Part shown: one piece after another, positions 18,782-30,910 of the stretch
Numbering within the stretch: position 1 is the first letter of the stretch
Layout of the letters: every line of letters begins with the position of its first letter
Source of the DNA: Candidatus Staskawiczbacteria bacterium
GTDB taxonomy: Bacteria > Patescibacteriota > Minisyncoccia > Minisyncoccales > Staskawiczbacteraceae
Length of the DNA: 32,552 nucleotides
Reading direction: 5' to 3'
Assembly (NCBI GenBank): GCA_903839895.1
Contig: CAIMDW010000004.1
Span: forward strand, 1 to 32,552
The notes under the pieces: model-generated
The model's input: the letters and a program-made list of their open reading frames with translations, nothing else
What the model was told of the DNA's origin: nothing
Databases searched by the model: none
Program-made: the position numbers and the translations under genes

Positions 18782-19969
18782 CTATTTAACGGGAAAAATA
18801 ATCATATAATTAGGGATTACCCCTCCTGTGTTCCTGATTTGCTCCCATTTGATTTGCTGAGGACCTAATTTATTTTCATCATTTGGCGTGGGGAATTCCT
18901 GGCAAGAAGTCCACAATCCCTCAGGATCATCTTTTTGCGGATTAAAATAAATTAGTAAAACCACATAATTTCCGTTTATTATTATTGAAGAAATATTTTC
19001 GCCGGCCAGAGACTGCTCTGTTCTGCTGGTGCAATTTCCATCTTTATCATATTTAACGCACTGCTTTTCGCTTTCTGGAACGTTTGTAAATTTTAAATCT
19101 CCAAGCGCTCGTATATAAAATGATTTGCCAAATCCTGTTTTAATTTCAGAATTTCCAACCTTTAAATATCCTCCGCTGGACTTATTGCATTGCGCAACCA
19201 AATCGTTAACATTACTGCTCAATATATTGTCAAAACATGATTTTCGATAAAAATAAACTCCGTCTCCATTTGGCTCTGGATTAAATTTATAAATTGAGGC
19301 AGAACTGGCAAATGGCGTAATATCTTGGCAATTTGCGTTCGGGTTAATATATTGGCATTTGCCCCAAAAATTCGTTTGTTCAAATAAAGTTGATATGTAA
19401 TAAGTATTATTTTCGACATCTGGTACAATATTAACAGAGTTTATTTGATTTCTTAAATCCTTTCCAAAATCGGCAACGCTGGATGTATAAGGATATGTGT
19501 TTGTCCCAGGGCAAGCATCTTTATAAAAATAAACTCCAGGTGAGCCTATTTTCACGGTCAATGATGTCGGAGGCGGCAGTTTTTCAAGCTTAAAAACATT
19601 CAATTGGGGATTTATCGTAGTTGCAATCAAATAAGTCAAAGTCAAAATCAGAAGTCCGGATATAGCGCTTACGACTCTTTCTTTCGCTTCAGATAAATAA
19701 CTGGAGTTTATCGGTGACAAAAGATATAAAACGCCAGCCCAAGCCAGCCCGATAAAAATCGCAAAGCTTCCCACAATCCAACCAACGTTTAAAATATATG
19801 TGACGAACGCGGGTAATTCTGTGGACGCTGTTACGCTATGCCCTGCGATTTCCGGATACACAGCTTCAAGAGTTACGGCTAAAACTTTATTTATTGCCAA
19901 AAACAAAATTAACAAAGCTGTCAAGCCCGTCTCCAATAAAATATTTTTTCCTTTTTTATTAAGCATCAC
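18782..19969 (-). CDS. VirB2/T4SS-pilin-like membrane module fused to ~270-aa ectodomain (protein 1)
   Basis: Signal-like helix, YPEIAGHSV...LPAFVTYILNVG, two TM helices separated by a short charged loop (SEAKERVVSAISGLL), TINPQLNVFKL; then GVYFYKDACPG... domains. Confidence 0.7.
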   Translation of the reverse strand: MMLNKKGKNILLETGLTALLILFLAINKVLAVTLEAVYPEIAGHSVTASTELPAFVTYILNVGWIVGSFAIFIGLAWAGVLYLLSPINSSYLSEAKERVVSAISGLLILTLTYLIATTINPQLNVFKLEKLPPPTSLTVKIGSPGVYFYKDACPGTNTYPYTSSVADFGKDLRNQINSVNIVPDVENNTYYISTLFEQTNFWGKCQYINPNANCQDITPFASSASIYKFNPEPNGDGVYFYRKSCFDNILSSNVNDLVAQCNKSSGGYLKVGNSEIKTGFGKSFYIRALGDLKFTNVPESEKQCVKYDKDGNCTSRTEQSLAGENISSIIINGNYVVLLIYFNPQKDDPEGLWTSCQEFPTPNDENKLGPQQIKWEQIRNTGGVIPNYMIIFPVK

Positions 19970-21540
19970 TATTGCTCTGGATACACATAAACCCAGTTTA
20001 ATTTGTCATTTCCGTTTGCAACGAAAGAGCTTACGCCCAACCTTGGCACAGATCCATTTGTTGCCGAATAATCAGCATAGTCAAATGTCTGGCAATATAC
20101 CACGGGCCCGTTTGCTCTTGCGCACATATGATTCTCAACATCGCAAGTATAATCAGTTTGACCTGAATACCAATGACCCATCTGACAATCGCTATTCGTA
20201 TTACAGGTTACTAAAGAATAAAGCGCAACCAAATATTTTCCATTCAACCGCATAGATCCTGGACAATCCTGAAAATTTTCACAACCGTTTACAGAACAAA
20301 GATGAGTAATTGAATTGTATGGTTGGCCGGCAGCAGTATCAGTTTCCACGCATGTGCCTCTATCCATGCAGCTTTGGCCCCAATCCTTATAGCAATTTGA
20401 ATCATCGTTAGCTTCACATCCATAGCCGCGACAAAGTCCAACATATGGGTCGCAAGTTTCACTATGATAGAACAAGCTGGAACGGCAATCAGCATTGGTT
20501 TTACAAGAAGTACTATTATAACATGTGTAATTATTTTCGCATCTCCTATATTGCGCTTTCGACGGATCTAATCCTTTTTGGCATTTCGCATCGGTTGAGC
20601 ATGTATAATCAATGGTTTTGTTTTCTTTGCAAAAAGTCGGCGGGCAAGTAGCCCGTAATTCTTGCGCAACACCCGTTCCATTATAGTCATAACACATTTG
20701 TTCAGCTTTCATAATGTATGATCTATTGTTTGGCATATCTAGAGTTTTCACTATAAGCTCATTTGAAATATTCACTTTTCCGTTATTGAAATTCATATCC
20801 TTCACATTATCCCATGGACCGCTATAAAGGGTAACACCATTTCCAGATGAGGTTTTATTCGAAACGTTCAATCGGATAATAGTGAGTGACGCGCCAGCCG
20901 ATGGCTGACCTTCATAAAATGCGTTACAGCCTTCTTTAATTTGCGGCAGAATGCATTCTCCTCCATTTTGGTAACCCGCATTCCTGTGATAGATAACCCC
21001 ATAATAAATATCATTTGCCGGATCGTTTACGATCTTATAAGAAACCATTTTGCCAGGATATTGCGAAGGCAAATCGCCAGATGAAATAATTGGAGCAGAA
21101 GCATCGCCCTGGCAATTTTCCTGAAGATAAATATAAACACCCGATTTTGCTGACGGCGCAACAATTGATGGAGGATTTGTCAAAGCTTCAAATGGTAATT
21201 TTAATAAATTCGGGTCAATTGTTTTTATGATTGCAAAAGAAGCTAAAGTCAAAACCAGTCCCAAAACAGCGCTTTTCATCCTATCTTTTGCATCATTATG
21301 CGATTCAATATTCGGACTGATAAGCCCTACGGCCCCAATTACGAATGATATCAACGATAAAGCTCCGGCGACAGAAATGGCAAAACCGAAAATATAACTT
21401 ACATATTGGCCCAATGTCGGATTATCAGACAAGCCTGGCAATTTTACTTCCAAAGCCGCTAAAGCCATGCCTCCGCTTAATGATAAAAAGGCCACGCAAA
21501 ATAAAAACAGCAAATATTTCTTTTTATTTTTTTTAATCAT
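19969..21540 (-). CDS. VirB2/T4SS-pilin-like membrane module fused to ~400-aa Cys-rich ectodomain (protein 2)
   Basis: LPGLSDNPTLGQYVSYIFGF, DAKDRMKSAVLGLVLTLASFAIIKTIDPNLLKL, then GVYIYLQENCQG and a stretch of CxxxxxC/CC-type repeats. Confidence 0.7.
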   Translation of the reverse strand: MIKKNKKKYLLFLFCVAFLSLSGGMALAALEVKLPGLSDNPTLGQYVSYIFGFAISVAGALSLISFVIGAVGLISPNIESHNDAKDRMKSAVLGLVLTLASFAIIKTIDPNLLKLPFEALTNPPSIVAPSAKSGVYIYLQENCQGDASAPIISSGDLPSQYPGKMVSYKIVNDPANDIYYGVIYHRNAGYQNGGECILPQIKEGCNAFYEGQPSAGASLTIIRLNVSNKTSSGNGVTLYSGPWDNVKDMNFNNGKVNISNELIVKTLDMPNNRSYIMKAEQMCYDYNGTGVAQELRATCPPTFCKENKTIDYTCSTDAKCQKGLDPSKAQYRRCENNYTCYNSTSCKTNADCRSSLFYHSETCDPYVGLCRGYGCEANDDSNCYKDWGQSCMDRGTCVETDTAAGQPYNSITHLCSVNGCENFQDCPGSMRLNGKYLVALYSLVTCNTNSDCQMGHWYSGQTDYTCDVENHMCARANGPVVYCQTFDYADYSATNGSVPRLGVSSFVANGNDKLNWVYVYPEQ

Positions 21541-21571
21541 ATTTTTGATTCTATTGTTTTATTTTACCTTA

Positions 21572-24115
21572 TTATTTCGTTACAGTCTCTTTTTGGCAAC
21601 AAAACCAATTATCTGTAAGATATAAACCAGAAACATTTCCCAGTTTTTGCCCATAGCATCCCGTATAATCCTTGCCATTGAATTTTATTTTCCTTGTGTT
21701 AATCGGAGGCATCAATTCATATAAAACCTTACTGCAACTAGATAGCGTTGTTTCAATTCCATAAATATTATTTTGTAAGCTGCAGCTATTTGTCTGTTTT
21801 CTAGAATAAGTCAGTTCCGCTAAGATTCCAGCAACCGTTTTCTTTATTTCTGCGCCGTTTATACTTGCGCTTGCCCGTATTAGCTGTTGTAAGTAAGTTA
21901 TAATTTGCTGGCATGAATTCTGCTGGTTTGGAATTAATGTGCAACTACACTTCTGCTGGCTATATTGGCAATTAGTAGTGCAAATTAATTGTTCTTTTTC
22001 GTCTAATGCATCCGATTTGCAATAATCCAAAATGACAGGATTATACACTGCATTCCCAATTTTTTTCATTAAGGCAATCAGCGAGTCAATACCATTAGAG
22101 CTGTTTATTGACTGCTCTGCCCAATTAATGGAATCGTCAACTGCTTGACCGAGTGGAATTTCCCTATTTGCAGGGCAATTATAGTTGGCCCCTAGAGGCG
22201 TAGAAGGAAGAGACCCCACGCTTGTACTATTATTCGCCCACCAATTGTCTTCGCAATAAAAAGTCAAAGGATCGTCATTGTATGAATATTGGTTACATTG
22301 AGTTCCAGCCGGGCAACTACAATTAGGGCAGTTTGAGCCTATTACTGTTCCTGTCTGATACGGCTGGCCTCTGTTTGAATAGTTATCAGATCCATTTTTG
22401 CATAGGTAAGAATTATTAAGGCAATAATTTGCATTCCCAGATTCATAATTAGGATCTGCGCTTTGGACACCGCAATATGCAAAAGCTTGCGCCTTTTGGG
22501 TGTTAAATAAGCAATTTGCAGGCTTATCTAACAGGCACTGTGAATCGCTATCGCATTGCTTTGCGCAAGAATCGTATTGTTCCGAGCATTTTGTAGGATC
22601 TAATTTTTCGCAATTTGTTTTGCAATCAGTCTGGCAAGAACTAATGCAATTGCCGAAATTTTGCGAAGCACCCGAACCGTTTACACAAGGCCGGTTGCTA
22701 TAAGCTGTTTGGATGCACTTTTCTTGATTTTCTAAACAAGCCTTGTCCTCTGGCTGGCAAAAACAACTTTTATAAACCTGCATAGCCTGATCTGAAGAAT
22801 CCGGACATGCATCGCTGCATTTTTTAAAGCAAGTAGAATTATCATAATTAAATCCAACGCAATATTTCGATGAATCTATGGGGGATTTGCTTATCGGATT
22901 TATAAATGGCTCCTTTAAAATGATTTTTTGTTCTTTTTTGGTTTGCTGGTAATTTTTTGTAAGATCTATATATGAAGCCGCCAATTTGCATTTATTTAAA
23001 GCGTTTACCGCCTGATTCAACATAAACTCATCTTCGTTGACAGATTTCTTTATCTCGCTTATTTTTATATTAAAATACATCATTTGCTGCAAAAGATTCA
23101 ATTTATTCCAATTGTCTTTATTTATTGTGTTTCCACTTTGAACAAAATTCTCAATATCATCACAGTTTGAATGGCCTCCTGAAATGGGGTTTGGGCACCT
23201 GAATTCATCCAATCCATGATATGTCACGGGTTTTGCATTGCAATTTGCATTTCCGTTGCTATTTTCAAATGTAACATCAACTGGTCCGTGTTCAATTTTA
23301 TCTTTTACTCCTTCAGGGCAACAATCTTTTGGGGTTGTATTAGAACAACCTGGTCCTGTACACGTACTGGTGCATTGATAATTTACATCATTAGAACAGT
23401 TATCTTTTGTAGGCTGATTGCAAATAATTTTTTTGTCGGAACCATTGGCATTCTCGCAAGAACATTGACTCATTAAATTATTTATTTCTTTTGATAAAGC
23501 GGAAACCGCTTTTGCTTTATTTTCGGCTCCCACGACTAATTGAGAAAGACAATCCGACCTGTCGTGATTGGCATATGCAGGACTGATAGGATTTCCTGAT
23601 GCGTCAAAACCGAAACAATAATCCATTGATTTAATCAGAAGGTTTTCTGTTAAAGTCCCAATAGGAATTTCCTTATACGTGGAAATTGGTATGCCATTAT
23701 AAGATGGCTGGCCGCCCAAAGAACCAAAATTTATAAAAGTTAAAATTCCAAATTTGCAGGAGGTAAGGCTGGAATTTATTGTAATTGCAATCAAAGAGGC
23801 TAAAAAACAAAGCAAAAATCCCGAGATACCAGCTTTAACCCATTCTTTAGCATCACTAGTGAATTTACCCCCAAGATAAGCAAGCAAATATTTGATTCCT
23901 CCATATGCAATGACAATCCCGGCAACCACATAAGCTGCATTCACAATGAATCCATAAATATAGCACACATAATCTCCAACATTGGAAGTCTCATTTACAG
24001 AATACCCTAAGATAGTGGGGTATTTAAGTTCTAAAGCTAAAACAAAACTGGCCTTCATTAAAAAGGCAAAAATAATTCCTAAAAAAATGAATATTTTTCG
24101 GGTTTTTTTTGCCAT
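21572..24115 (-). CDS. VirB2/T4SS-pilin-like membrane module fused to ~720-aa highly Cys-rich ectodomain (protein 3)
   Basis: YPTILGYSVNETSNVGDYVCYIYGF, SDAKEWVKAGISGFLLCFLASLIAITINSSL, then long Cys-rich region. Confidence 0.7.
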   Translation of the reverse strand: MAKKTRKIFIFLGIIFAFLMKASFVLALELKYPTILGYSVNETSNVGDYVCYIYGFIVNAAYVVAGIVIAYGGIKYLLAYLGGKFTSDAKEWVKAGISGFLLCFLASLIAITINSSLTSCKFGILTFINFGSLGGQPSYNGIPISTYKEIPIGTLTENLLIKSMDYCFGFDASGNPISPAYANHDRSDCLSQLVVGAENKAKAVSALSKEINNLMSQCSCENANGSDKKIICNQPTKDNCSNDVNYQCTSTCTGPGCSNTTPKDCCPEGVKDKIEHGPVDVTFENSNGNANCNAKPVTYHGLDEFRCPNPISGGHSNCDDIENFVQSGNTINKDNWNKLNLLQQMMYFNIKISEIKKSVNEDEFMLNQAVNALNKCKLAASYIDLTKNYQQTKKEQKIILKEPFINPISKSPIDSSKYCVGFNYDNSTCFKKCSDACPDSSDQAMQVYKSCFCQPEDKACLENQEKCIQTAYSNRPCVNGSGASQNFGNCISSCQTDCKTNCEKLDPTKCSEQYDSCAKQCDSDSQCLLDKPANCLFNTQKAQAFAYCGVQSADPNYESGNANYCLNNSYLCKNGSDNYSNRGQPYQTGTVIGSNCPNCSCPAGTQCNQYSYNDDPLTFYCEDNWWANNSTSVGSLPSTPLGANYNCPANREIPLGQAVDDSINWAEQSINSSNGIDSLIALMKKIGNAVYNPVILDYCKSDALDEKEQLICTTNCQYSQQKCSCTLIPNQQNSCQQIITYLQQLIRASASINGAEIKKTVAGILAELTYSRKQTNSCSLQNNIYGIETTLSSCSKVLYELMPPINTRKIKFNGKDYTGCYGQKLGNVSGLYLTDNWFCCQKETVTK

Positions 24116-24131: not shown

Positions 24132-25940
24132 TTAATTTTGCGCTTGTTCTATTTTCCTTTTCGCTTCGCGTTTTATCGCCACTTCCTGAGGATTTGTCGT
24201 GATAATATTGCTTTCCGTCGGACTGGCGACTACCGCCAGATACACGTGCTTTCTGCCTGCAAAAAATAATCCTTCGCCAACTGCCGCATCAATCAATAAA
24301 TACTTTTCCTGCTCGGTCAGATTAAAAGTTTGCTGGACAGCTTCAATATCAGCAGTAGACTGCTTCATTAAAAATTGCAAAGACGAGTTAGTAATAATTG
24401 CTTTCCCATAAGCTGATCCTGCAAAATCAGCCACGTTCTGGGTGATAGTTGTCACTCCCAGCCAATATTTTCTGCCTCTTTTTGCCAATCCAAAAAGAAA
24501 AGATGCTCCGTCTTCTGTCTGCATCAGCCACCAAGCTTCATCAATAACCAAAATTCTTTTCTTTAAATTAGACCTGACAATATTCCATATATATCGCATA
24601 ATTATATACAAAGCAATCGGCCTCAACGAATCTTCCATATCCCTTATTCCAAAAACCACAAAGCTTTTATCCATTTTAATATTGGACTGCTGGTTGAAAA
24701 AATCCGAAAAAGTTCCTTTGGTGAATTTGCCGATTCTTTTTACCAATGATTCCGTGCCAGTCATACTTTCCAAAACTTCCTGAAAATCCGACATTAAAGG
24801 CGTGTTTTGCGCCCAGGTGGCAGGATCCGATTGCGGAGTAATGTCTCTTATGGCATAAGTCTGCGTAAGCGCTTCGTCTAAAACGCTGTCTTCTTCTGCG
24901 CTTAATCCGCCAAGCATAATGCGCAAAAGCCCAACCAGGTTTATAACGTTAGATCTCAAAACGTCTTCAGGATTGTCATCTGGCCCGGGAAGCGGCAAAT
25001 CAAAAGGGTTCAAATGGTTTGGACTAGTCAAAGAAATTTTCAAAAATGCTCCACCTACGGCATCTGCCAAATATTCATATTCGTTTTCAGGGTCGACAAT
25101 TATACAGTCTACTCCCTGCATCAAATACCTTAAAATTTCCAGCTTGATGGCAAAAGATTTTCCGGCTCCAGATTTGGCAAACACTACCATGTTTGCATTT
25201 TCCAAACTGAACCGGTCAAACAAAACCAAAGAATTATTATGCCTGTTTACGCCGTACAAAATTCCTTCGTTTGAACTCAAGTCAAAACAAATAAATGGAA
25301 AGCAAGTGGAAAGGGGGGCCGTATCCATTGGCGTATGCACTTCAATCAAATCCATTCCATAAGGGCTGGTGGAAATAAATCCTTCCTTCTGCTTGAACAA
25401 AGCCGGTTTTATATAAATTAATCTCGATTCAAAGATAGATCTTAAGGTTAATTCTGTGTCGCGCAATTCTTTTTCGGAATTTTCGTAAACCGTAATATAA
25501 AGCCCCAGGCGGAACATTTTTTCCTGGGCCGTCATTAAATTATCTCGCAAAGTTTCAATGTCTTTGTAGGCTGTTTCCAGTGCAGGATCACGGATTAATC
25601 CTTTTTCTTCCCTTTCCAAAATTTCAGAAGAAACTTCGGTGACTTTTTTCCTTAATTTTTTTAAAATCAGTTCCGAGCTGACAGGATGTATGAAAAACGA
25701 GATATCCATTGGGGTCGACAAATCAATCACGGGAGAAAACCAGCCTGTATTCAAATACCTGGGATATGAAAAAACAAAAAAAGATTTAGCAAATCTTTCC
25801 CCCAGTTTTATATGGTCTTGCAAGACTCCAATATACGGGGGCGCAATTATGTCTTTTACGTCAAAAGACTCTTCCTGGAAAATTTTGTCTGTCAGGTCTT
25901 CTTCCTTTTTTTTACCGAAAATGCTGTTTAAAAATGCCAT
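24132..25940 (-). CDS. virB4: VirB4/TraC-family T4SS ATPase
   Basis: Walker A VFAKSGAGKSFAIKLEILRYL, VDPENEYEYLADAVGG, Walker B RILVIDEAWWLMQ, RKYWLGVTTITQNVADF, LMKQS. Confidence 0.93.
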   Translation of the reverse strand: MAFLNSIFGKKKEEDLTDKIFQEESFDVKDIIAPPYIGVLQDHIKLGERFAKSFFVFSYPRYLNTGWFSPVIDLSTPMDISFFIHPVSSELILKKLRKKVTEVSSEILEREEKGLIRDPALETAYKDIETLRDNLMTAQEKMFRLGLYITVYENSEKELRDTELTLRSIFESRLIYIKPALFKQKEGFISTSPYGMDLIEVHTPMDTAPLSTCFPFICFDLSSNEGILYGVNRHNNSLVLFDRFSLENANMVVFAKSGAGKSFAIKLEILRYLMQGVDCIIVDPENEYEYLADAVGGAFLKISLTSPNHLNPFDLPLPGPDDNPEDVLRSNVINLVGLLRIMLGGLSAEEDSVLDEALTQTYAIRDITPQSDPATWAQNTPLMSDFQEVLESMTGTESLVKRIGKFTKGTFSDFFNQQSNIKMDKSFVVFGIRDMEDSLRPIALYIIMRYIWNIVRSNLKKRILVIDEAWWLMQTEDGASFLFGLAKRGRKYWLGVTTITQNVADFAGSAYGKAIITNSSLQFLMKQSTADIEAVQQTFNLTEQEKYLLIDAAVGEGLFFAGRKHVYLAVVASPTESNIITTNPQEVAIKREAKRKIEQAQN

Positions 25941-25944
25941 AATG

Positions 25945-26598
25945 TTATTTTAAGAGTTCGGGCAGAATTTCAGGGTAATATCCCACTTCTGCCTGATCTG
26001 GGTGATGTATAGACCAGAAAAGCTCAATCAATTCGGGCGTGGTCAAAGGAATTGCTTCCAGCCCGCATCTTCGTAATCCGGTTGCCACATATTCCATTCT
26101 CTGCCAAAGCTGGGTTTTGCATCTTTCAAAATCTTCATCTTTCATTGCTTCTTGATTTGCGCCTTTATTGAAAGGATTCAGCTGTTTTCCAGCTCCCTTC
26201 ATTCCTAGCGCTTCTATAATATTGTAAGGGACCACTACATAAAAGCTTTTTGTCATTACCACGTCGCCCACAACCATATTTTTTATGAATTCGCGATAAG
26301 AAGCAGTCTGTTCCCGAAGCAAAGGGTTTGTCTGTTTGTCTTCCAAATCTTTTAAGCTGTCCAAATACGGAGTAATGTTTATATTCCTGGATTGGATTAC
26401 AATCTGGCAGAAGAAATCCAAAGAATTCAAAAAGCTTTGGAAGGCATAAATTACCGCTGTCTGTTCCTCTTCGGATTTCAACGCAAAATTTATGGAAGAA
26501 ACCATTAAAATTCCGCGGACGGAATTGTTTTTCAAAAGCAAAACTCCCTCCCTTATGTCTTTTACTTCCAAAAATTCTTGTGTTGCTGATTCTGGCAT
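25945..26598 (-). CDS. TraC N-terminal-like protein, stand-alone, directly upstream of virB4
   Basis: FLEVKDIREGVLLLKNNSVRGILMVSSINFALKSEEEQTAVIYAFQSFLNSLDFFCQIVIQSR; located between PrgI and VirB4. Confidence 0.75.
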   Translation of the reverse strand: MPESATQEFLEVKDIREGVLLLKNNSVRGILMVSSINFALKSEEEQTAVIYAFQSFLNSLDFFCQIVIQSRNINITPYLDSLKDLEDKQTNPLLREQTASYREFIKNMVVGDVVMTKSFYVVVPYNIIEALGMKGAGKQLNPFNKGANQEAMKDEDFERCKTQLWQRMEYVATGLRRCGLEAIPLTTPELIELFWSIHHPDQAEVGYYPEILPELLK

Positions 26599-26606
26599 AT
26601 TTAAAA

Positions 26607-27008
26607 TTATTTTGTGTCTATTGCTGTTTTAGTCCTTTTTAAATGGCTTGTCTGCGCCTGCAAGACCGGAGCAGTTTCAATTTTTTTAATTTGCGTGCGG
26701 GATATCGGCTTGAAAGGGTAGGGCGATTCTTTTTTCTTCCAAGTGTAATCTTTGCCATGCAATGAAAATCCTATTGCCCCCAAAATCATATCCAAAATTG
26801 GAGTCCCATTAACTGTTCCAAAAGCTAAAATTGCGGCCCCAATAAAAATTGTCCCGCCGAGTATGAAAAACAGAAACCGGGGGAGTATGAAATACAGAAA
26901 AAAGCAGGCCACTCCTGCTCCCACCAAATAGAAAAATTGCCTAAAGGAAATAAAGAAAGCTATCTTGCTTTCTGATTCGATAAATTGCGGAATAGGGTAT
27001 TGTTCCAT
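26607..27008 (-). CDS. PrgI-family T4SS membrane protein (VirB3-like position)
   Basis: MEQYPIPQFIESESKIAFFISFRQFFYLVGAGVACFFLYFILPRFLFFILGG...GTPILDMILGAIGF. Confidence 0.85.
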   Translation of the reverse strand: MEQYPIPQFIESESKIAFFISFRQFFYLVGAGVACFFLYFILPRFLFFILGGTIFIGAAILAFGTVNGTPILDMILGAIGFSLHGKDYTWKKKESPYPFKPISRTQIKKIETAPVLQAQTSHLKRTKTAIDTK

Positions 27009-27163: not shown

Positions 27164-28354
27164 ATGGAATATCTGCTTTACGGATTGCTGTGGCTTGTGG
27201 GAATCATCGCCACGCCATTCGCGGTTTTTTTGGCAGGAAAGTACATTATTTTCTTGTTAGCCAAAGCTAATATCCTCTGGACAACCGTAGAACAAGGATG
27301 GTGCAAAATCGTCCTGAAATACGGCAAATACAGCAAGATAATCAACCCCGGCTTAAGGTGGCTTGGGCTTCCGGGGATAAACTCTCTTTATGCACGCAAA
27401 ATGAAGTTTTTGAAAAGCGTCATTAAAGAAGACGGCACTATTGCGGTGGAAATTCACAAGGATGAGAAAATTACGAGCTTTAAAACCACCAAATACCCCT
27501 ATGCTCTCCCTTTCAAGGACGAAGAGGATTGCCGAGGGTTGCCGCTTTCTGGCGTGCTGACGATTAACGGAAGCATGGCAGATGGCTTCAAGATGTTTTT
27601 CGTTGCCAGCGATTGGTATGCTACTATTGTCCTTTTGGCTCTGAGCTGCTTTCGCGATATCATCACTACAATTTCCTATGAGGAAATTACTGGGCAGTAT
27701 TCAAACCAAAAAGCGGCTACAAATGTTGTTAGGGAAAAGATTGCCGAACTTTTGTGGAAGAAAATGAATTCTCCACGCGAAGGCGACAAACTTTCGGTGG
27801 TTGACGAACTGCTGGAAATCTACGGATTCGAAGTGGATTCTGTGGAATTGGCAAGCATCGACCCGCCCGCCGAGTGGAGAGCCATCACTCTTGCGCCCTA
27901 TAAGGCTCAAAAGGAAAAAGAAGCGGCCGAAGAACAAGCCAAGGCCAGCGCTGCTCTTTTTGGTGACACCAATCTGGCCTTAAAAGACTGGATAATAGAC
28001 CATCCCGATGCTACCCAAGGCCAAATTGAGAACAGGCAAGCAGAATTGGCCCAAAGGGCGTACCTTAAAGCTGGGGGTCAGTACCAGCGAATCGAAGGCC
28101 TAGAGAATGCGCAATATGTCGGTTTCGGCGGCGGAAGAGGCGGCATGGGGTTTCTTGCCGGTGGCAAACAAGGCGGTTCCCGCAAAAGCAAAAGCGGCGA
28201 AAGAGGTTCTGCCAACGACGATCCGAAAGGCTTATTGAAAAAATCTCCAACTGAGCTTTCGGCCGAAGATCTCGCTGAACGTGACGAAATTGTGCGGAAA
28301 AGAGGCCAAAAGAACAAAGGGAAGTGGCGGCAAGAAGACGACGAAGAGGAGTAA
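27164..28354 (+). CDS. SPFH/band-7-like membrane protein with Gly-rich, charged C-terminal tail
   Basis: N-terminal hydrophobic helices; WTTVEQGWCKIVLKYGKYSKIINPGLRWLGLPGIN...SVELASIDPPAEWRAITLAPYKAQKEKEAAEEQAKA; tail GFGGGRGGMGFLAGGKQGG. Confidence 0.75.
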   Translation: MEYLLYGLLWLVGIIATPFAVFLAGKYIIFLLAKANILWTTVEQGWCKIVLKYGKYSKIINPGLRWLGLPGINSLYARKMKFLKSVIKEDGTIAVEIHKDEKITSFKTTKYPYALPFKDEEDCRGLPLSGVLTINGSMADGFKMFFVASDWYATIVLLALSCFRDIITTISYEEITGQYSNQKAATNVVREKIAELLWKKMNSPREGDKLSVVDELLEIYGFEVDSVELASIDPPAEWRAITLAPYKAQKEKEAAEEQAKASAALFGDTNLALKDWIIDHPDATQGQIENRQAELAQRAYLKAGGQYQRIEGLENAQYVGFGGGRGGMGFLAGGKQGGSRKSKSGERGSANDDPKGLLKKSPTELSAEDLAERDEIVRKRGQKNKGKWRQEDDEEE

Positions 28355-28876: not shown

Positions 28877-30910
28877 TTATAATCCTGCGGCTATCATTTC
28901 GTTCCTCTTTTCATCCAGTTTATTATATTCTTCAATCGCTTCCATCGGCGTGCCCACTCCAGCATCAGAGGGGTCTAATAATCTCGGATATTTTGTTTTA
29001 AGCTTATTCATTTCATTCATTAATGTGTCCTTGCTAGTAGATATAGCATCAGCTTTAGCTCCCGACGTCATTTCCATTGCCTTTGTCATTTTTTTGACAG
29101 GAGTATATTTTGCAAAATTGCCGGATTTAAGCGTAGGAATGCTGTAATCCCTGATATCTTGGACACTGGCCCTTTCATATCCGTCTTTGGTAACTTCTTC
29201 TTTGGCTGTGTTTAATTGCGTTGAAGTTGCATTTTTTATGCCAACATTAAATTTGCCCCTAAGCTTTTCATTGACTAGATAATCGTTATCGGCGCGCTTG
29301 TTCGGGTCTTTCTTTTCCTCTTGGGACCTGACGCCAGTGGCTCCCAACACTTCCCCGAATTTAATCCTTCCCATCATCCTTTGATTTATTTGGGCCTGCT
29401 CATTTTCAGTCACATTTGTCATGTCAGCTATTTTTACTCCGCCAAATTTCTTTGCGGCATCGGTCAAATCATTATTATCTGAAACAGCTTTTATAGCAGC
29501 GCCGCCACGCAAACCTCGCCCAATCATAGCTTCTTTTTGTATCCTATCTACCGTGTTTATATCGCCTGAAGCTTTAGCTGCAGAATATTGCGTTGATATG
29601 TCTTTTGCCGCTTTATCCACACGCTGGGATTTTGCGGCGGCTGTTGAGCCTTCCTGCTTCCAGCCCATAACTTCTGAAAATCCGCCCAGCCGGTCTTTTG
29701 AAGCCTGAACCGCGTTTGAAACCTTGTTTCCTGTCCATTTATCTGCTGTCTTCAATGCTGCGCTGCTTCCTGCGGCTGCCGCTCCCATGGCAAATCCAAC
29801 TCCGCCGGTCACAGCTCCTCTTACGGCTCCCGCCGCAATGTCGGCGATTCCGCCGGTTTTGCGAATCATTTTATAACCGACTATAAGGAAAATGAATGAA
29901 ACAAACAGGAGAAAAATATTTACGTCACCGGTTGTGTTTCCCGCCACAATTGTTTGAGTAGCTAAATAAATGAAAAACGAACCGAAAACTCCTACAAAAC
30001 TCCATTTCAAAAAATTATCCCACCATTCCGACTGATATTTTTTCAGACGGGAAGAAGGGAACATCCAAAAAGCAAAAGCAATAGGCGAAAGTATATAAAG
30101 TACTGCAAGTATGGCATATCTGGCCGCAAATAAAATGGCCATAATTGCAAAAGTATAAGCCGCATATAATAGAATAACCATGAACATTGCACAGGCAAAT
30201 AAAAATTTACCAGGATCGTTTACAATATTTTCGTTGGCTACCTTCACAGAATCTGGATTATTCCCCGTGCTATTTAGCGAATTTTCCACATAAATATTAA
30301 TAGCGTTAGACAATGAATCAACATTTTGGCTGGTTTTTTCGTTTCCTAACAACCCATTCATGGTTATATTTGAAGCGTCTATGATAACTCCGCAAAATAA
30401 TCCTGAAAAATTGATTAAAAGAGCAACAACAATTATCCTTCCCAGGATTTTTTTTGCGGCATACTCCTGGATCCTTAAAGCTGTGGCAATTCCCACAATC
30501 ACAAAACCCAAAACAACAATCATGTCAGCAAGATCTCTGACTCTTCCCCAAACCAATGAAAAAGTCGGGTCATTGGTAATTGTGCGCTTTACAAAATCAG
30601 AGCTTAATACATATACCAGAGATTTTGAAGCTAGCCAAAAAGCAGCTTGACCGATGCTCATAAGGAAATATCCAAGCCCTAAAACTAAACTGGTTTTAAA
30701 ATCTGCTTGAGCGCCAGACACTGTTTGCCCAACTTTATGCGCTCCCCATAATACCCCACCCAAAGCGACTACCGCCCCCACTAAAAGATAAGTTCCAGAA
30801 ATTGTCAGAGCCAATCCCTTTTCCTTTTTTTCAGGGTCAAAAATCGGCGAGAAAAAATCTTTGATTTTTTCTTTAAACACGTAATATTTTGTGAATAAAT
30901 TTTTGACCAT
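28877..30910 (-). CDS. VirB6/TrbL-like polytopic membrane protein with long soluble C-terminal region
   Basis: Multiple TM helices (about 30-350), AARYAILAVLYILSPIAFAFWMFPSSRLKKYQSEWWDNFLKWSFVGVFGSFFIYLATQ, then Ala/Gly-rich and charged C-terminus. Confidence 0.78.
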   Translation of the reverse strand: MVKNLFTKYYVFKEKIKDFFSPIFDPEKKEKGLALTISGTYLLVGAVVALGGVLWGAHKVGQTVSGAQADFKTSLVLGLGYFLMSIGQAAFWLASKSLVYVLSSDFVKRTITNDPTFSLVWGRVRDLADMIVVLGFVIVGIATALRIQEYAAKKILGRIIVVALLINFSGLFCGVIIDASNITMNGLLGNEKTSQNVDSLSNAINIYVENSLNSTGNNPDSVKVANENIVNDPGKFLFACAMFMVILLYAAYTFAIMAILFAARYAILAVLYILSPIAFAFWMFPSSRLKKYQSEWWDNFLKWSFVGVFGSFFIYLATQTIVAGNTTGDVNIFLLFVSFIFLIVGYKMIRKTGGIADIAAGAVRGAVTGGVGFAMGAAAAGSSAALKTADKWTGNKVSNAVQASKDRLGGFSEVMGWKQEGSTAAAKSQRVDKAAKDISTQYSAAKASGDINTVDRIQKEAMIGRGLRGGAAIKAVSDNNDLTDAAKKFGGVKIADMTNVTENEQAQINQRMMGRIKFGEVLGATGVRSQEEKKDPNKRADNDYLVNEKLRGKFNVGIKNATSTQLNTAKEEVTKDGYERASVQDIRDYSIPTLKSGNFAKYTPVKKMTKAMEMTSGAKADAISTSKDTLMNEMNKLKTKYPRLLDPSDAGVGTPMEAIEEYNKLDEKRNEMIAAGL

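Follow-up and report, generated by a model that had tools for sequence, protein, structure and literature searches.

Three giant proteins of a type IV secretion operon carry a pilin hairpin

What are three large proteins with a pilin-like N-terminal module doing at the end of a chromosomal type IV secretion system (T4SS) operon? The question is raised by a 32,552-nucleotide stretch of DNA from a Candidatus Staskawiczbacteria bacterium (contig CAIMDW010000004.1), here called the window, whose source genome (G000) is a 0.59-Mb draft that is 86% complete. The minus-strand operon runs in the order VirB6-like protein, 152-amino-acid open reading frame (ORF), PrgI, N-terminal part of VirB4 (VirB4N), C-terminal part of VirB4 (VirB4C), giant 1, giant 2, and giant 3. 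VirB4, TrsD and PrgI are encoded together in it, as in an MPF-FATA-like T4SS of Patescibacteria. A preliminary description had placed three tandem ORFs at 18782-24115, each with a VirB2/TrbC-like membrane module followed by a tail of ~270, ~400 or ~720 amino acids. These coordinates and tail lengths are right, and all three ORFs lie on the minus strand. We refer to giants 1, 2 and 3 by their lengths, as P847, P523 and P395 (Table 1). Our comparisons draw on draft genomes, on alignments with 17-20 sequences for each family, and on a single structure model for each.

The module that the three proteins were said to share is real. It consists of an LE-x-YP-x-I-x-G segment, a first helix, a short AK-containing loop, a second helix, and TINP. 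An alignment of 33 sequences has no variation in the E, P, Y and G columns and very little in I-N-P-x-L. Profile-profile comparison of the three modules in pairs (hhalign) gave E values of 2e-34, 1e-29 and 4e-31, versus 0.05-0.23 for reversed sequences and 0.05-0.36 for unrelated membrane families of the same operon (PrgI, VirB6 and a small membrane ORF). The modules also matched the small pilins of their own genome, at E values of 9.6e-10, 5.6e-13 and 1e-8 (reversed controls, 0.05-0.5). In the loci read, a profile seeded with the three N termini recovered 88 proteins, including the small pilins encoded by the window's source genome, and the reverse search, with a profile of small pilins only, found the giants at E values down to 2e-17.

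A hairpin of two helices is a simple structure that holds little information, and a sequence search of the solved structures of conjugative pilins (VirB2) found no match to the hairpin. This would suit an explanation in which hairpin and pilin resemble each other through shared hydrophobicity only. However, reversed profiles and the three unrelated membrane families gave E values of 0.05-0.5 where the true comparisons gave 1e-8 to 1e-34, and many giants of other genomes exceed the curated cut-off of the T4SS_pilin family (PF18895), which is 26.6 bits. These controls rule out chance hydrophobic similarity, and we consider the explanation highly improbable. As judged by sequence profiles, the homology of the giant hairpins to each other and to T4SS pilins is confirmed.

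The preliminary description had named VirB2/TrbC as the likely family; the homology to T4SS pilins stood and the direct match did not. PF18895 matched 19 of 20 members of the P523 family (best E value, 1.1e-10) and 10 of 20 members of the P395 family. The window giants themselves scored below the curated cut-off in hmmscan, two at 15.5 and 14.2 bits and P395 at 8.5 bits; the match of P847 was weak (E = 0.047, or 1.9e-4 in the genome search). TrbC/VirB2 (PF04956) had no significant direct match in the P523 family, where it hit a single member of 20 at an E value of 0.68. In the giants' own genome, PF04956 matched only the small pilin on contig C23, and a small pilin that matches both PF18895 and PF04956 links the two families. 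At the level of sequence profiles, therefore, the family that matches is PF18895 and not PF04956 directly.

The giants have the features of T4SS pilins (signal peptide, two membrane helices and charged loop), in proteins of 395, 523 and 847 amino acids where T4SS pilins have ~70-120. Because of this size, we call them pilin-domain proteins and not pilins. The LE-x-YP collar segment is specific to the giants and is lacking in the small pilins. The genome encodes at least six ordinary small pilins, four on contig C45 and one each on C23 and C37. The four on C45 (about 100-111 amino acids) form a tandem array directly after gyrA (L060:6772-8210), at the contig end and apart from the VirB4 operon. 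Since the genome has ordinary small pilins of its own, the giants are additional to them and not replacements.

The hairpin is fused to probably extracellular domains across the phylum

To ask how widespread such fusions are, we sampled 117 genomes evenly across the phylum. The module was found in 111 genomes, VirB4 in 109 and both in 106 (Fisher p 0.004, related genomes not being independent). In at least about 33 of the 117, the module match lay in an open frame at least 300 codons long, frames being taken from stop to stop. We then read 20 loci with long hairpin-bearing frames, at 10-20 kb per locus. Two encode GH5 cellulase-like secreted proteins with the hairpin at the extreme C terminus (L126:9543-13295, 1250 amino acids; L127:7218-10220, 1000 amino acids). 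Elsewhere the hairpin is joined to GH18 (L121:9544-11112), a DUF459/SGNH domain (L131:8794-10689), a Peptidase_C39-like domain (L129:7281-9890), an M15-like piece whose match is below its own cut-off (L130), PKD repeats (L120, L135 and L136), or carboxypeptidase-regulatory-like domains (L134). In the GH5, GH18 and PKD fusions of other genomes, the hairpin scores above the PF18895 cut-off. Judged by these domain matches, the fusion of hairpin and tail is phylum-wide and not a local oddity. The PKD-bearing pilin-domain proteins of L136 (genome G081) and L120 (genome G074) are giants, and VirB4 was not found in either genome.

These fusions bear on topology. In 78 of 82 giants an AxA-like site lies ahead of LE..YP, where the mature protein starts, every one of the 33 alignment rows has K or R in the hairpin loop, the segment before helix 1 has a net charge of -1.9, and no further membrane segment follows the module in any of the 82. 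Since the hairpin is elsewhere fused, at its N- or C-terminal side, to GH5, GH18, C39, M15-like, SGNH or PKD domains, the tails are very probably extracellular; a hairpin whose two ends both face outwards is consistent with secreted enzymes at either one. An independent argument comes from the C-terminal part of the P847 tail (C1), which exists in other genomes as a signal-peptide protein of its own and is therefore most likely outside the membrane. The extracellular location proposed in the preliminary description is thus upheld. We envisage that Sec would export each giant and that signal peptidase would cleave the signal peptide. The arrangement that would result, with the hairpin in the membrane, its charged loop on the inner side, and both of its ends and the large tail outside the cell, is strongly supported.

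The tails of P395 and P523 are related and that of P847 is cysteine rich

The tails had been described as diverging beyond the module. This holds for P847, whereas the tails of P395 and P523 are homologous, with an hhalign E value of 6e-31 over 208 columns (reversed control, 0.003), and on this alignment they are paralogous. For P395, the AlphaFold (AF2) model has pLDDT values of mostly 77-94 in the tail, and the best eight PDB matches found with it by Foldseek are all beta/gamma-crystallins (best E value, 3.6e-4; probability, 0.85-1.00), two-domain lens proteins among them. PF08964 (Crystall_3) matched 2 of 20 P395-family members (best E value, 0.0075), and the single match of this family among PDB sequences was 3hzb, a bacterial crystallin domain (E = 0.019). 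The P523 profile had no crystallin match in the PDB. Each line of evidence is weak singly; because the Crystall_3, 3hzb and AlphaFold/Foldseek results agree, they make a jointly convincing case that the predicted fold of the P395 tail is two beta/gamma-crystallin domains. The likeness of the P395 and P523 tails to microbial beta/gamma-crystallins such as 3hzb of Flavobacterium johnsoniae thus lies in the predicted fold and the core sequence motif. Both tails would represent one crystallin-like domain pair. Unlike those proteins, the tails are fused to a pilin hairpin, and nearly all family members lack the canonical calcium motif. The motif, N/D-N/D-x-x-S/T-S, occurs in 2 of 20 rows of the P395 family and 1 of 20 of the P523 family, not at a conserved position. 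Non-calcium members of the beta/gamma-crystallins lack it too.

P847 has 56 cysteines, 53 of them in the tail. Its AF2 model, with a confidence of 65, has long predicted helices in the tail, for which we found no Foldseek match below an E value of 4 and no PDB sequence match below 0.2. The profile of the N-terminal tail part (N1) matches hairpin-bearing proteins of other Paceibacteria (L056, 2e-18; L057, 1e-21). C1 matches a family of separate secreted proteins (hhalign E = 1.4e-9 over 49 columns; reversed, 0.03), and in L056 the next gene encodes a separate Cys-rich signal-peptide protein that matches C1 at an E value of 5e-6. By these matches, the P847 tail is split in other Paceibacteria into a protein of hairpin plus N1 and a separate C1 protein. 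An internal duplication as the origin of the two EIP-G parts (N1 and C1) is unsupported, the profile comparison giving an E value of 0.014. Cysteines make up 4.1% of the giants beyond the module versus 0.9% inside it, and 0.3-1.4% of the neighbouring T4SS proteins. At two loci, a Cys-containing, secreted-looking protein of 870-970 amino acids without a hairpin lies between two pilin giants (L055:10603-13503 and L059:10795-13404). A comparison of the giants with PHROGs found no phage relation.

That the tails are separate units, one part of which is a stand-alone secreted protein in relatives, would also fit giants that are secretion substrates or pro-proteins, in which cleavage removes the hairpin and the tail is released, or is delivered by the T4SS. 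However, we saw no conserved cleavage site between hairpin and tail, where a conserved TINPxL is followed by varied linkers, and all three paralogues remain fusions throughout the family. We regard such processing as improbable.

The giants keep their place beside VirB4 within the family

The order PrgI, VirB4N, VirB4C, giant 1, giant 2, giant 3 is kept in relatives whose contigs reach far enough. Where relatives keep VirB4 at the locus and the contig extends to it, VirB4C lies directly upstream of giant 1 or is separated from it only by small ORFs. Giant 1 has 745-1240 amino acids in most relatives. One relative has four giants (L048), and in one genus of the family most genomes have a single giant by this query. 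At L055, L057 and L059, the giants are neighbours of VirB6, and the stretch read showed no VirB4. Median identity in the best local alignment is 34%, 37% and 44% for the giants versus 85% for VirB4C. By this measure the giant tails evolve faster than the VirB4C ATPase.

In many relatives, a small conserved membrane ORF (consensus PEGVLML...GGW...IP...W) lies between VirB4C and giant 1. It is absent from this position in the window, and a profile search of the same genome, run without a positive control, found nothing. In two relatives, VirB4C is interrupted by a LAGLIDADG intein (L054:9342-13139, 8e-19; L077:1036-4002, 4e-20; Intein_splicing).

The giants as candidate tip or collar subunits

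Conjugative pili are 74-87 A wide (PMC9905601). A tail of 27-80 kDa on every subunit would be too bulky for such a filament, so the giants would be sparse and sit at the tip, in a collar, or outside filaments. We give about an even chance to the reading that they are low-copy tip or collar subunits of the chromosomal T4SS ("capped" pilins). Ordinary small pilins could form the shaft of the pilus. The giants would assemble into a hetero-oligomeric tip or collar on the VirB6-PrgI-VirB4 apparatus, where they might touch a partner cell or its wall. The proposed role of VirB4 in VirB2 systems is to lift the pilins from the membrane, and by analogy it may extract the giants from the membrane or position them. 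We infer polymerisation, tip position, binding function and VirB4 dependence of the giants.

Several observations weigh against this reading. VirB4 was in the stretch read at only 3 of the 20 loci from the survey (L123, L132 and L134), so most of the more distant loci read have no VirB4 within 10-20 kb. Five genomes have the module and no VirB4 was found in them; one of these, G081, is rated 100% complete and has a giant, which suggests that a giant may not need VirB4. P395 matches PF18895 at an E value of only 2.9, and its membership in the family comes from the profile comparison. Neither VKOR nor a Thioredoxin_4 oxidase was found in the 86% complete genome of the window, and VKOR was found in just 4 of 33 family members, which offers no oxidation route for the giants' many cysteines.

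The genomes without detectable VirB4, and the many members of the phylum in which the giants are far from VirB4, also speak for a simpler role, in which the hairpin is a membrane anchor only and the giants are ordinary surface proteins around the T4SS base that never enter the filament. They might then substitute functionally for the adhesin PrgB or for VirB5/VirB8-type parts. Hairpin-borne GH5, GH18 and C39 domains could act as plain surface enzymes, and the LE-x-YP collar segment is not a feature of small pilins. However, there would be little reason for a plain anchor to retain similarity to small pilins (E values of 1e-8 to 6e-13) or to stay beside VirB4, PrgI and VirB6 throughout the family. 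We think the anchor role quite plausible, at slightly less than even chances.

Comparison with known systems places the tip or collar proposal in context. A T4SS and a small pilin array are essential for epibiotic growth of the saccharibacterium Southlakia epibionticum (PMC10633639). For Patescibacteria, the available sections of PMC12102498 describe VirB2-like pilins and arrays and no PrgB-type adhesin, and give no function for the system. The small pilins of these reports, like PF18895 pilins generally, resemble the giants in signal peptide, hairpin, sequence, and VirB4/PrgI/VirB6 machinery. However, they are described as small proteins, and the giants are longer by an extracellular domain of 260 to 1500 residues. 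In the same sections, PMC12102498 sought pilins as small proteins and makes no mention of such fusions. Main texts of the open literature, searched without supplementary tables, did not report any fusion of a T4SS pilin to large domains, and no paper found there besides PMC12102498 names PF18895. With VirB2/TrbC pilins (PF04956; F-pilin and T-pilin), the giants share two termini outside and a charged inner loop, but they differ in size and in having no significant direct PF04956 match. In the extended VirB6 proteins of Rickettsiales (PMC7648143, PMC2653234), too, a membrane part of the T4SS is present as tandem paralogues that carry large additional domains; the core there is a polytopic VirB6 whereas that of the giants is a pilin, and we imply no homology. 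PrgB and the cell-wall adhesins of Gram-positive conjugation (PMC12857230) may be alike in contacting a partner cell. PrgB, however, is LPxTG-anchored and has a polymer adhesin domain, neither of which was seen in the giants.

The Patescibacteria T4SS is essential in the one species tested, and the literature we found assigns no host-contact protein to it. The conserved pilin-anchored extracellular domains beside VirB4 are named candidates for this contact. The data suggest that in these bacteria pilus subunits serve to present tools that come into contact with other cells. More tentatively, and with the chances rather against it, the hairpin may be a general chassis in Patescibacteria, by which T4SS pili or pilus bases carry interchangeable extracellular tools for attaching to and opening the host envelope. 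The tools, all of them predicted, would be binding domains (crystallin-like and PKD) and enzymes that cut glycans or walls (GH5, GH18, C39, M15-like and SGNH). Fusions of a conjugative-type pilin with enzymes would, if true, put the pilin fold to a new use, and might account in part for the ability of these systems to work without VirB1-type wall hydrolases.

Features of the window

Table 1. Positions of the giants, their parts, and the associated T4SS genes (window coordinates unless a locus is given)
Feature	Position	Strand	Evidence or description
Giant 1 (P847)	21572..24115	-	847-aa ORF; signal peptide, T4SS-pilin hairpin, Cys-rich tail
P847 hairpin module	23753..24031	-	residues ~29-121; model helices 46-81, 87-113
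P847 tail part N1	22856..23698	-	EIPIG-T motif, long helices, Cys-rich insert
P847 tail part C1	21575..22198	-	EIPLG-AVD motif; separate secreted protein in other Paceibacteria
Giant 2 (P523)	19969..21540	-	523-aa ORF; signal peptide, T4SS-pilin hairpin, crystallin-like tail with Cys-rich insertion
P523 hairpin module	21196..21456	-	residues ~29-115; alignment and hhalign
Cys-rich insertion in P523 tail	20287..20667 (approximate)	-	alignment; gap in hhalign; variable among relatives
Giant 3 (P395)	18782..19969	-	395-aa ORF; signal peptide, T4SS-pilin hairpin, predicted tandem beta/gamma-crystallin tail
P395 hairpin module	19598..19873	-	residues ~33-124; model helices 52-83, 89-119
Predicted beta/gamma-crystallin domains of P395	18785..19549	-	residues ~141-395
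VirB4 ATPase, C-terminal part (VirB4C)	24132..25940	-	NF045971, E 1.6e-106
VirB4 N-terminal part, TrsD-like (VirB4N)	25945..26598	-	NF041427 TrsD, E 1.7e-7
PrgI (VirB3-like)	26607..27008	-	PF12666, E 5.4e-8
VirB6-like polytopic membrane protein	28877..30910	-	position, hydrophobicity, syntenic homologues
Small conserved membrane ORF of relatives	L045:9173-9529, L049:7963-8460, L056:7312-7719, L058:8271-8693, others		

The VirB6-like protein had no significant match in a Pfam/library scan. A frameshift as the cause of the ATPase being split into two ORFs was rejected, since the split is kept in relatives; the arrangement of TrsD and VirB4 is described in the available sections of PMC12102498. 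A Band-7/SPFH protein encoded on the opposite strand (27164-28354, plus strand) separates VirB6 from PrgI both in the window and in most relatives. Elsewhere in the window, positions 1946-2227 of the minus strand encode a small rubrerythrin or encapsulated-ferritin-like protein (PF22277, E = 7e-7).

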